NCBI RefSeq assembly: GCF_000230675.1
Contig: NZ_AGIK01000001.1
Coordinates: forward strand, 1,054,001 to 1,118,000
Reading direction: 5' to 3'
DNA from: Synechococcus sp. WH 8016
Lineage (GTDB): Bacteria > Cyanobacteriota > Cyanobacteriia > PCC-6307 > Cyanobiaceae
DNA: 64,000 nucleotides
Positions 45,803-48,129 of the stretch are shown here, piece by piece. The first letter of the stretch is position 1. The number at the start of each line of letters is the position of its first letter. The notes below the pieces were generated by a model. That model was not told the origin of the DNA, made no database searches, and saw nothing but the letters and a program-made list of their open reading frames with translations. A program made the position numbers and the translations under genes.

Positions 45803-46345
45803 TCAACGCTTAATTTCCACTGCCATTCCCACTTCCACGTGGTCATACAGCTGCTGAACATGCGCATTCAACATGCGCACACAGCCGTTGGATACGGCTG
45901 CTCTGGTTTTGACCCAATGGGGCCAGGGAGTGCCATGAATACCAAATTGATTGGGTCCACTGCGCAGGAAGCCAATCCAGCGATGGCCCAATGGGCTGTT
46001 AGGTCCACGTTTGGGATGCAGCTTCCCTGACTTGGTGCTCTGGTACTGAGGATTCATCATCATGTTTTCGACCTTGAACACCCCAGAGGGTGTTGGGGTC
46101 TTGGGATCACCGATCGCCACGGGCCATGGGCCATGGGTCTGCCCCTGGCGCACAACACTGATTTGCCTGCGGCCCAGATCCAACACAACGCGACCCTCCA
46201 CTGGCGAACGAACAGCCATTGACACTTGGGTGGGCTGGAATGGGTTGGGCTGGGATCGAGACAGCGCTGGAGCCGCCACGAGAAGAGAGGAAGCGAGCAA
46301 CGCCACCGGGAGGCCAGGGACGCAAGCGGTGCATTTGAGACTCAT
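45803..46345 (-). CDS. L,D-transpeptidase (YkuD family), exported
   Basis: Protein of about 180 aa with a signal peptide (GLPVALLASSLLVAAPALS) and a YkuD catalytic domain. The lower part has FGIHGTPWPHWVKT (catalytic His) and AVSNGCVRMLNAHV (S-x-G-C-x-R, nucleophile Cys). It forms 3-3 peptidoglycan cross-links or attaches proteins. Either ATG 46345 or ATG 46405 could be the start; the shorter gives a more typical signal peptide. It works at the cell wall, as do pgeF and ftsI in this window. Confidence 0.88.
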   Translation of the reverse strand: MSLKCTACVPGLPVALLASSLLVAAPALSRSQPNPFQPTQVSMAVRSPVEGRVVLDLGRRQISVVRQGQTHGPWPVAIGDPKTPTPSGVFKVENMMMNPQYQSTKSGKLHPKRGPNSPLGHRWIGFLRSGPNQFGIHGTPWPHWVKTRAAVSNGCVRMLNAHVQQLYDHVEVGMAVEIKR

Positions 46346-46440
46346 GAGCAGACAGCCAAGACTCACTGGTCTCAACGTATGCACTGTGCGAAAAAAAAAC
46401 CGCACACTGCGAGCAGTGAAACCTTAAGGATTTAAGAAAT

Positions 46441-47451
46441 GTGCTAGCCAGACTCCAGAGCCTCCAAGCCGAAATGAAGCACCAACTGTCTTGGTCTGAA
46501 GGAGACGCAAATCTGTTCTTGCAAGCCATGCAGGAAGTGGGCTCCATGGGAGGCGTTGCAGAACTTGAGCCCATCACCCTGGAAATGATCGAATCCATTC
46601 AGAACTTTGTTCTGAAGTCGTCCATCGATCTGAACCACCTCGATGGCATTAAGCCAGCGGCTCTATCAGAGAAGATGGCCGATAAAAGCAAACGCGAACA
46701 ACTCCTTCAAATCCTGATTCTTCTGCCTTATGTAGATATGAAGGTCGACCCACGGATGGTGGCGATTGTGGATGATTTTGCCGAACATCTAGAGATTCAC
46801 CCCCAAACAATCAAAGACCTACATCGCGTTCGGGATAATCACTTAAAGCGACTTTTAATCGATTACGGACGCAGGAGCTTAGGCGAATTTCTGGGCCTCG
46901 ACTCAGCATCGAAAGTGATCAAAGGTGTCATCACAATGTTCCACCAAGCCATCGGTGATCGGGCTGTTTCTGAACGGTATCAACAATTAGAGACTTATCC
47001 AGAAGGCAGCCTTGGGCACACAGTTTTCCATTGGTACCGGGATAGGAATTGGGCACTACCGGGGGAGAAAAAAAGCACATCTGAATTCCTCCTAAATCAC
47101 GATTGCTGCCACATTCTTGGAGGATTCAATACAGATGTACAGGGAGAAATGAATGTGGCAGCCTTTCAGGCCGGGCTCTTTGACGATGGTTTTGGGTTTG
47201 AATCACTCTTAGAAGTAATTCTCGACTTTCATTTAGGAAAAGCCTTCAGTACGGTTGGAGATATCATTCCACCCTCCAGAGGAGCCTTCCATCCAAACGA
47301 TGCGATGGAAGGCTATGAGAAGGGACTGGCTTGCAACACTAACCTCATCAGAGATTTTAATTTCTGGTCAGAAGCCGATCAATCCGTTTCCAAACTACGA
47401 GAGAAATTCAATATTCCAGCCTCATCTGGACCTCTTTTAATTCAACCTTGA
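46441..47451 (+). CDS. TerB-like plus COQ4-like (HDxxHx11E) protein
   Basis: Protein of 336 aa starting at GTG (AAGGA 10 bp upstream); an in-frame ATG is at 46474. The middle (LLQILILLPYVDMKVDPRMVAIVDDFAEHLEI) resembles the helical TerB-type domain. Near residue 220 is HDCCHILGGFNTDVQGE: H220, D221, H224 and E236 give exactly HDxxHx11E, the metal-binding signature of the COQ4 family. COQ4 proteins act in ubiquinone biosynthesis, whereas cyanobacteria make plastoquinone, so the function here is open; a lipid- or quinone-binding role is possible. Confidence 0.75.
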   Translation: MLARLQSLQAEMKHQLSWSEGDANLFLQAMQEVGSMGGVAELEPITLEMIESIQNFVLKSSIDLNHLDGIKPAALSEKMADKSKREQLLQILILLPYVDMKVDPRMVAIVDDFAEHLEIHPQTIKDLHRVRDNHLKRLLIDYGRRSLGEFLGLDSASKVIKGVITMFHQAIGDRAVSERYQQLETYPEGSLGHTVFHWYRDRNWALPGEKKSTSEFLLNHDCCHILGGFNTDVQGEMNVAAFQAGLFDDGFGFESLLEVILDFHLGKAFSTVGDIIPPSRGAFHPNDAMEGYEKGLACNTNLIRDFNFWSEADQSVSKLREKFNIPASSGPLLIQP

Positions 47452-47541: not shown

Positions 47542-48129
47542 TCAATCCACGAGTTTTGGATCAATCTCAGCAACATACCGAGCTTCACAGCTCTTGATGA
47601 TCTCTACGGCTTTTTCAGTGCCAAAGAATCCATTCACCGTGCAGGTGCCAGGCTTTTTCAGATCCTTGTAATGCTCCCAGTAGTAAGTAGTTTCCTTTTT
47701 CCATTGCTCACCAAGATCTTCGAAGCTCTTGATGTGATCAACACGCTTGTCATCTGCCAAAACGGCGATCACCTTGTCATCAACCTCACCACCATCATCA
47801 AAGGTCATGATGCCGATAATCCTTGCTTCCACGATCGAACCAGGAATTAAGGGTTCGGTCACGTTCACGATCTCAATATCGAGAGGATCTCCATCCTCAT
47901 CCCAAGTGCGAGGAATACAGCCATAGGCAAAGGGATAAGCCAGAGAGGAGTACCCAACCCGATCCAGCTTGAGATGGCCTGTTTCCGTAATGAGCTCGTA
48001 CTTGTTGATCGTGTTGGAGTTCAGCTCCACGATGGTGTTGAGGCGTAGCTCAGCCTCATCAGCAAAGGCCGGCAGCACATGAAGCAGGTTGGGCATGCTG
48101 CGGCTTGGAGCCTGGTCGAGATTGGCCAT
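47542..48129 (-). CDS. ppa: Family I inorganic pyrophosphatase, second copy
   Basis: Longer, divergent soluble PPase of 195 aa. All key residues checked are present: E35, K43 and E45 (NTINKYELI), R57 (LDRV), Y65 and Y69 (YPFAYG), and an intact D79-G-D81-P-L-D84 box. It has insertions (MTFDDGGEVDDKVIAV) and a long C-terminus (YWEHYKDLKKPGTCTVNGFFG) unlike the 170-aa copy at 29036; it resembles the eukaryote-like/long bacterial type. It is probably the main pyrophosphatase if the first is impaired. It has its own terminator. Confidence 0.92.
   Translation of the reverse strand: MANLDQAPSRSMPNLLHVLPAFADEAELRLNTIVELNSNTINKYELITETGHLKLDRVGYSSLAYPFAYGCIPRTWDEDGDPLDIEIVNVTEPLIPGSIVEARIIGIMTFDDGGEVDDKVIAVLADDKRVDHIKSFEDLGEQWKKETTYYWEHYKDLKKPGTCTVNGFFGTEKAVEIIKSCEARYVAEIDPKLVD

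Follow-up and report, generated by a model that had tools for sequence, protein, structure and literature searches.

Why should a cyanobacterium that presumably makes plastoquinone rather than ubiquinone carry a protein with the metal-site signature of COQ4, and does the resemblance reach beyond that short motif? The question is posed by one open reading frame (ORF) in a 64,000-nucleotide stretch of the Synechococcus sp. WH 8016 genome (contig NZ_AGIK01000001.1, positions 1,054,001 to 1,118,000; "the window" throughout), from a strain that we take to be marine. A first-pass annotation had described a COQ4-type motif joined to a TerB-like N-terminus in this ORF, which is present as described (Table 1). 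Profile searches, structure prediction and genome comparisons confirm that its 336-residue product (the "focal protein") does belong to the Coq4 superfamily, as a distant member, and carries an extra TerB-like domain at its N-terminus.

The Coq4 assignment is carried by comparisons at the level of the family. When the C-terminal halves of 32 long proteins were aligned with seven short Coq4 proteins by hhalign, the probability was 98.7 and the score 107.3. None of 200 column shuffles reached that score (maximum 20.3), though such shuffles destroy helix periodicity and so flatter this result and its TerB counterpart below, a weakness from which the reversed alignment (15.8) and a PDB-wide search are free. 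The long set comprised distinct hits only, leaving aside fragments (L013, L017), a split copy (L027), a 236-residue copy (L092), the short Coq4s and close duplicates (L004, L005, L007, L009, L011, L077, L080, L082, L083, L088, L096, L097); the short set held seven of the ten short Coq4s (L045, L050 and L052 omitted). Searched against all PDB sequences, a 38-row family profile placed 3MSQ (E = 1.3e-9), 6E12 (E = 1.3e-6) and 2OU3 (E = 0.0098) in the top three ranks, with an unrelated ribosomal protein fourth (E = 0.12). The underlying alignment holds the window protein and 37 of 54 loci (L168, which contains an X, was omitted, and 16 others were redundant, partial or decayed). By itself, the focal protein scores 16.3 bits with the Pfam Coq4 model (PF05019), below the gathering cut-off of 22.9, and has no match in NCBIfam, while a Pfam scan of the 38 members at E ≤ 0.01 returned Coq4 (24 members) and TerB (two members) and no other family. 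The resemblance to COQ4 might have ended with the short motif; hhalign, the PDB profile search and the predicted fold all show it going further.

The TerB-like character of the N-terminal half emerges in the same way. Residues 1–160 of the same 32 proteins, aligned with 26 cyanobacterial TerB domains (of 28; L105 and L125 omitted), gave a probability of 94.4 and a score of 48.5, to which none of 200 shuffles came close (maximum 14.5; reversed, 8.2), and the cross-controls scored 15.5 (N half against Coq4) and 15.3 (C half against TerB). The Pfam TerB model (PF05099) has no match to the focal protein at E ≤ 10 and thus falls short of its gathering cut-off; the best TerB score among ten members scanned (L152) was 24.2 bits, the cut-off being 24.4. 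Two separate ORFs, one of 242 residues (G087, E = 2.6e-16) and one of 239 residues (G046, E = 4.9e-16), are also hit by the family profile, over its positions 7–132 and 7–120 of 323, and both of these exceed the Pfam TerB cut-off. What appears to have been lost is the acidic signature of TerB. Specifically, its four acidic positions are D, E, D and E in 25 or 26 of the 26 TerB domains and map, by one low-identity hhalign alignment, to G37, P44, D99 and M106 of the focal protein, i.e., D99 alone is kept; across the 38 members this third position is D in 26 and E in six. As far as these alignments indicate, then, the fold is retained and the signature is mostly gone (three of four positions). 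A match to HTH_60 (15.5 bits against a cut-off of 24.1), overlapping the TerB region, was considered and read as a chance helical match.

Structure prediction points to the same two folds. An AlphaFold2 model built on the 38-row alignment is all-helical, with no strand of three or more residues, and has a predicted local distance difference test score (pLDDT) of 90.7 and a predicted template modelling score (pTM) of 0.89. Aligned by VIA-align, it gave Z scores of at least 8 with four entries only, namely 6E12 (11.1), 3MSQ (9.8), 2OU3 (9.8) and 2H5N (9.6), the next row (4.7) being neither Coq4 nor TerB, with the caution that a Z below about 13 can reflect a common helical-bundle arrangement. 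We take 2H5N, from Porphyromonas gingivalis and deposited as a protein of unknown function, to be a TerB protein. The Coq4 match starts at residue 112. The TerB matches start earlier, at residue 2 or 13, and extend into the Coq4 half, so that the first helices of the Coq4-like domain overlap the end of the TerB part and the region of the linking helices is common to both halves. Profile search and structure prediction, which the first-pass annotation had proposed as checks, thus agree on Coq4 and TerB folds, and its N-terminal TerB-like helical segment is borne out by the hhalign result, the 2OU3 profile hit and the fold matches.

Residues 220–236 (HDCCHILGGFNTDVQGE) fit HDxxH-x11-E, the exact COQ4 metal-site signature that had been claimed for this ORF. 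In the window, the motif occurs in the focal ORF alone among 226 stop-to-stop segments of at least 100 residues, but because shuffling within segments yields it 0.095 times per window, the motif alone is weak evidence. Its retention across the family says more: all 44 distinct long ORFs (≥300 residues) have it in full, and this count is free of pattern bias, as these relatives came from a whole-protein phmmer search of fetched loci and were not selected by motif. The 38-row alignment, by comparison, was gathered with the pattern HD[CL][CVG]H[IV]L[GSC]G, and the invariance of H220, D221 and H224 in it is (nearly) by construction. Two arginines of the linking helix are also strongly conserved (Table 1), although in the 32-row alignment R144 alone is invariant and R145 is not.

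By its sequence, the focal protein belongs to a TerB-Coq4 clade that includes several marine Synechococcus paralogues and has relatives in Myxococcota and Reyranella. In a 74-row tree (a quick one, with long branches, unsure deep nodes and some genes represented from two collections), long and short classes separate with a Shimodaira–Hasegawa-like approximate likelihood ratio test support of 99. The focal protein is one of 14 rows that group together with support 100 and are all from Synechococcus or the same genus; this set joins four rows from Myxococcota or unassigned metagenome-assembled genomes (MAGs) in an 18-row fork (support 88), itself inside a 23-row set that adds B-type Synechococcus rows (support 96). 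A pattern search, in which 54 of 132 matches were confirmed, placed related proteins in contigs of Reyranella, Binatota, Halieaceae and Synechococcus/Cyanobium; MAGs account for many of these and may be mis-binned. Among 292 cyanobacterial genomes, 15 match the family at E ≤ 1e-15, a strict threshold that makes these counts lower bounds; ten of the matches span at least 250 of 323 model positions, and the other five genomes hold one decayed copy only (G024) or the N-terminal part only (four). Neither 50,697 phage records nor 72,556 plasmids contained a match to the focal protein, viral contigs queried with the single protein or the short Coq4 alignment gave no confirmed relative, and there was no match to PADLOC (defence) or PHROGs (phage) families.

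Within the genus, the gene occupies a fixed slot between an L,D-transpeptidase and an inorganic pyrophosphatase gene (presumably ppa, judging by its sequence). It is intact there in 14 of 31 genomes (G000, the own genome of the focal protein, and G002, G004–G007, G009, G010, G014, G016, G021, G022, G026 and G030, the transpeptidase side lying outside the fetched stretch in G002 and G016) and split between frames or shortened in three (G013, G020, G024). The slot is empty, i.e., without a focal-type match at E ≤ 1e-3 between neighbours about 80–710 bases apart, in 12 (G001, G003, G008, G011, G012, G017–G019, G023, G025, G028, G029); the remaining two (G015, G027) could not be judged. Ratios of nonsynonymous to synonymous substitution rates (dN/dS) of intact copies are 0.073–0.158 (seven pairs; approximate, as dS reaches 1.0). 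The gene is thus optional in the genus, and its intact copies are under purifying selection. Flanking loci show Synechococcus core synteny plus lineage-specific neighbours, and since the neighbours differ between lineages, genomic context gives no function.

Table 1. Positions (in the window) of the focal gene, its parts and the genes bordering its slot.
Feature	Position	Strand	Basis or remark
TerB-Coq4 two-domain protein, 336 residues	46441..47451	+	GTG start; alternative ATG at 46474
TerB-like all-helical domain, residues about 13–134	46477..46842	+	hhalign 94.4; 2OU3 profile hit; VIA-align
Coq4-like domain, residues about 112–327	46774..47421	+	VIA-align Z 11.1 (6E12), 9.8 (3MSQ); PDB profile
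R144-R145, linking helix	46870..46875	+	invariant in 38/38 rows of the family alignment
Predicted metal site HDCCH-x11-E (H220, D221, H224, E236)	47098..47148	+	motif; metal role as in Alr8543 and COQ4, by analogy
L,D-transpeptidase (YkuD), left border of slot	45803..46405	-	Pfam PF03734; synteny
Inorganic pyrophosphatase, right border of slot	47542..48129	-	synteny

The true start of the focal protein may lie at the ATG at 46474 (residue 12), because residues 1–10 have a pLDDT below 50 in the model, more distant orthologues align only from residues 8–12, and in the G007 copy a TAA stands a short way before the equivalent ATG. The GTG is preceded by AAGGA, and no such element precedes the ATG, so that either start may be the one used.

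Other Coq4-type genes were seen along the way. Four long copies lie in the own genome, together with three short Coq4s that exceed the Pfam cut-off. One long paralogue (G000:C1:1126037-1126927; L073:8864-9916) is interrupted by an in-frame TGA at a position that is W in its relatives (FWMGEED), possibly a recent nonsense mutation or a sequencing error, and one short copy (G000:C3:155091-155531; L101) has an internal TAA and is probably decayed. Up to 11 Coq4-model matches occur in one genome of the genus (G013; E ≤ 1, fragments and subthreshold matches included), a striking expansion. In G008 and G012 (L216, L217), which lack the focal gene, a B-type long lineage lies about 1.3 kb beyond the same pyrophosphatase and is about 37% identical over residues 55–326. 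In Synechococcus WH7803 (L161:7878-10780), the long paralogue of C-type is followed immediately by genes that by eye resemble those for Mrp-type antiporter subunits, and the neighbour of the own genome's C-type paralogue differs from this. Finally, the uncultivated viral contig IMGVR_UViG_3300009425_000043 encodes (L134:4659-5447, forward strand) a short Coq4-family protein of 262 residues with HDMIH-x11-E, which scores 26.2 bits with PF05019, over the cut-off; it lies between a tail-fibre-like gene upstream and an HlyC-family acyltransferase gene downstream and has no relative among the 50,697 phage records.

What might such a protein do? The reading we prefer, with confidence and doubt in about equal measure, is that of a stand-alone, accessory two-domain Coq4-superfamily protein that acts, in a metal-dependent way, on a lipid different from the plastoquinone precursor. 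The precedents are Alr8543 of Nostoc sp. PCC 7120, reported with Mg2+ at H120, D121, H124 and E136 and with oleic acid (PMC9774615), and a reconstructed ancestral COQ4, described as a Zn-dependent C1 decarboxylase whose metal-site double mutants are inactive (PMC7615680). By analogy with these, the focal protein should bind metal next to lipid. In its Coq4 domain, H220, D221, H224 and E236 would coordinate a divalent metal next to a hydrophobic inter-helix cleft able to accommodate a prenyl or acyl lipid as in Alr8543. The metal would be used to act on the lipid head group, with COQ4-like decarboxylation the nearest precedent. The TerB-fold half would most likely serve as a lid or as a docking surface for a membrane or partner, not as a metal sensor, and the substrate would probably be an accessory lipid of isoprenoid or aryl type, distinct from the plastoquinone precursor that UbiD presumably handles. 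A bolder version, which we think unlikely, would make TerB-Coq4 an unrecognised branch of lipid metalloenzymes, i.e., old Synechococcus paralogues, moved between Synechococcus and Myxococcota, that make or remodel a non-ubiquinone, non-plastoquinone isoprenoid or aryl-acid lipid, with the TerB half repurposed as a dock.

Several observations weigh against this preferred reading. The metal, the lipid and the catalysis of the focal protein are all predicted by analogy, and catalysis in this branch is not assured, because COQ4 was long regarded as a scaffold. Taken singly, the focal protein finds 3MSQ by phmmer at E = 0.72, behind an unrelated PDB chain at 0.65; its model superposes on 6E12 and 3MSQ at 16–20% identity with root-mean-square deviations of 5.4–5.7 Å; and the top Foldseek ranks (3MSQ, 4.6e-3; 6E12, 5.0e-3; 2H5N, 0.088) include none at E ≤ 0.001. 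An arginine that is invariant just before the HD in the seven short Coq4s (R115) has no invariant counterpart in the long class, so that the active-site neighbourhood differs from that of the short Coq4s. Moreover, a shortened C-type copy of 236 residues in G028 has lost the glutamate through an in-frame deletion, and ORF clustering of 74 flanking loci and the window region returned no conserved partner gene.

One alternative is that of a non-catalytic lipid-binding or scaffold protein, made of two helical binding modules and holding a metal with a structural role, as was once proposed for yeast Coq4. The oleic acid in the Alr8543 crystal (PMC9774615) and the lack of a consistent partner enzyme beside the gene are in keeping with it; set against it are the four ligands kept in all 44 long ORFs and the requirement, in the account of PMC7615680, for the same residues in COQ4 decarboxylation. 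We regard it as possible, if doubtful. A protein of the TerB type, sensing stress or metal and carrying the Coq4 part as an accessory, would account for the profile and fold of the N-terminal domain, yet it sits badly with D99 as the only survivor of the four acidic positions, with a genome whose single TerB match (E ≤ 0.001) lies far from the window, and with the empty PADLOC result; we judge it very improbable. There is next to no chance that the motif arose by accident in an unrelated helical protein or that the gene is dead: the subthreshold Pfam score, the rate at which shuffled segments produce the motif and the three genomes with decayed copies could be cited in its favour, and the family-level profile and structure tests and the low dN/dS values speak against it.

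The plastoquinone question is where the first-pass annotation had located the puzzle, and it is one on which genome distribution bears directly. The presence of a COQ4-type site in a plastoquinone maker stands as an observation but loses its oddity, as Coq4 matches over the Pfam cut-off occur in 29 of 31 genomes of the genus and both Coq4 structures returned by the PDB searches come from Nostoc. Could the focal protein then be the cyanobacterial counterpart of COQ4, decarboxylating a prenylated 4-hydroxybenzoate intermediate on the way to plastoquinone? It belongs to the right superfamily and has an intact site, eukaryotic COQ4 is reported to carry out this step (PMC7615680), and Slr0926, a cyanobacterial 4-hydroxybenzoate solanesyltransferase, is reported to serve plastoquinone synthesis (PMC5159609). 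On the contrary side, UbiD is found in 29 of 31 genomes of the genus, including all 24 of good quality, and the focal gene is missing or decayed in 15 of the 31, which together make a core plastoquinone role unlikely. UbiD is the enzyme that we assume to act at this point of cyanobacterial plastoquinone synthesis. In wider sets of genomes, a near-full-length match at E ≤ 1e-15 occurs only in the ten of 292 cyanobacterial genomes given above, and 83 of 151 genomes of the host's family (40 of 95 good-quality ones) have no Pfam Coq4 match at E ≤ 0.001, although among the 83 at least G034, G144 and G171 carry a long form and the 20 listed are 1.3–2.4 Mb in size. A core plastoquinone enzyme was accordingly set aside, and we hold the idea to be highly unlikely. 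Where the first-pass annotation had offered a lipid- or quinone-handling protein or a relative with a new role, the relative with a new role is what is left standing, and plastoquinone is disfavoured by UbiD and by distribution.

That cyanobacteria have Coq4-family proteins is already known from the solved Nostoc structures, and the chemistry of COQ4 itself was settled only recently, according to PMC7615680 and PMC12938788. A Coq4 gene, named by domain only, is also reported in a prochlorosin cluster of Synechococcus MITS9509 (PMC10783134); the likeness, that of another marine Synechococcus Coq4-family protein, is one of description and not of sequence, and the figure legend that reports the gene mentions no TerB portion. 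The TerB-Coq4 fusion was not found in the titles and abstract openings of the papers listed by searches on Coq4 or TerB. With its Coq4 half scoring below the Pfam cut-off, the architecture will probably escape routine annotation. To our knowledge, bacterial Coq4 relatives mostly have no assigned role, and a tractable genus that keeps several diverged Coq4-type proteins beside UbiD makes a role outside quinone decarboxylation addressable.

Compared with its nearest solved relatives, Alr8543 (6E12, formerly 3KB4) and 3MSQ of Nostoc punctiforme, both PF05019, the focal protein shares the Coq4 fold over residues 112–327, the HDxxH-x11-E site, a GSLG-type turn before that site and a conserved LR near the C-terminus. 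It differs in the PG(E) loop before the site, in R144-R145 of the linking helix and in about 110 added N-terminal residues, i.e., the TerB-like domain; its identity to them is 16–20%, and its Coq4 score lies below the Pfam cut-off. Eukaryotic COQ4, the coenzyme Q C1 decarboxylase, has the metal motif with identical spacing, and it is from this protein that the TerB fusion, the accessory distribution and the presence of UbiD in the host set the focal protein apart. With TerB proteins (PF05099; 2OU3 of Nostoc punctiforme and 2H5N), the N-terminal domain shares the helical fold (Z of 9.8 and 9.6) and profile similarity over most of its length, whereas three of the four signature acidic residues are missing and the domain is fused to Coq4. 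In the fusion, TerB, a fold whose function is unclear, is joined to what is probably a lipid enzyme.
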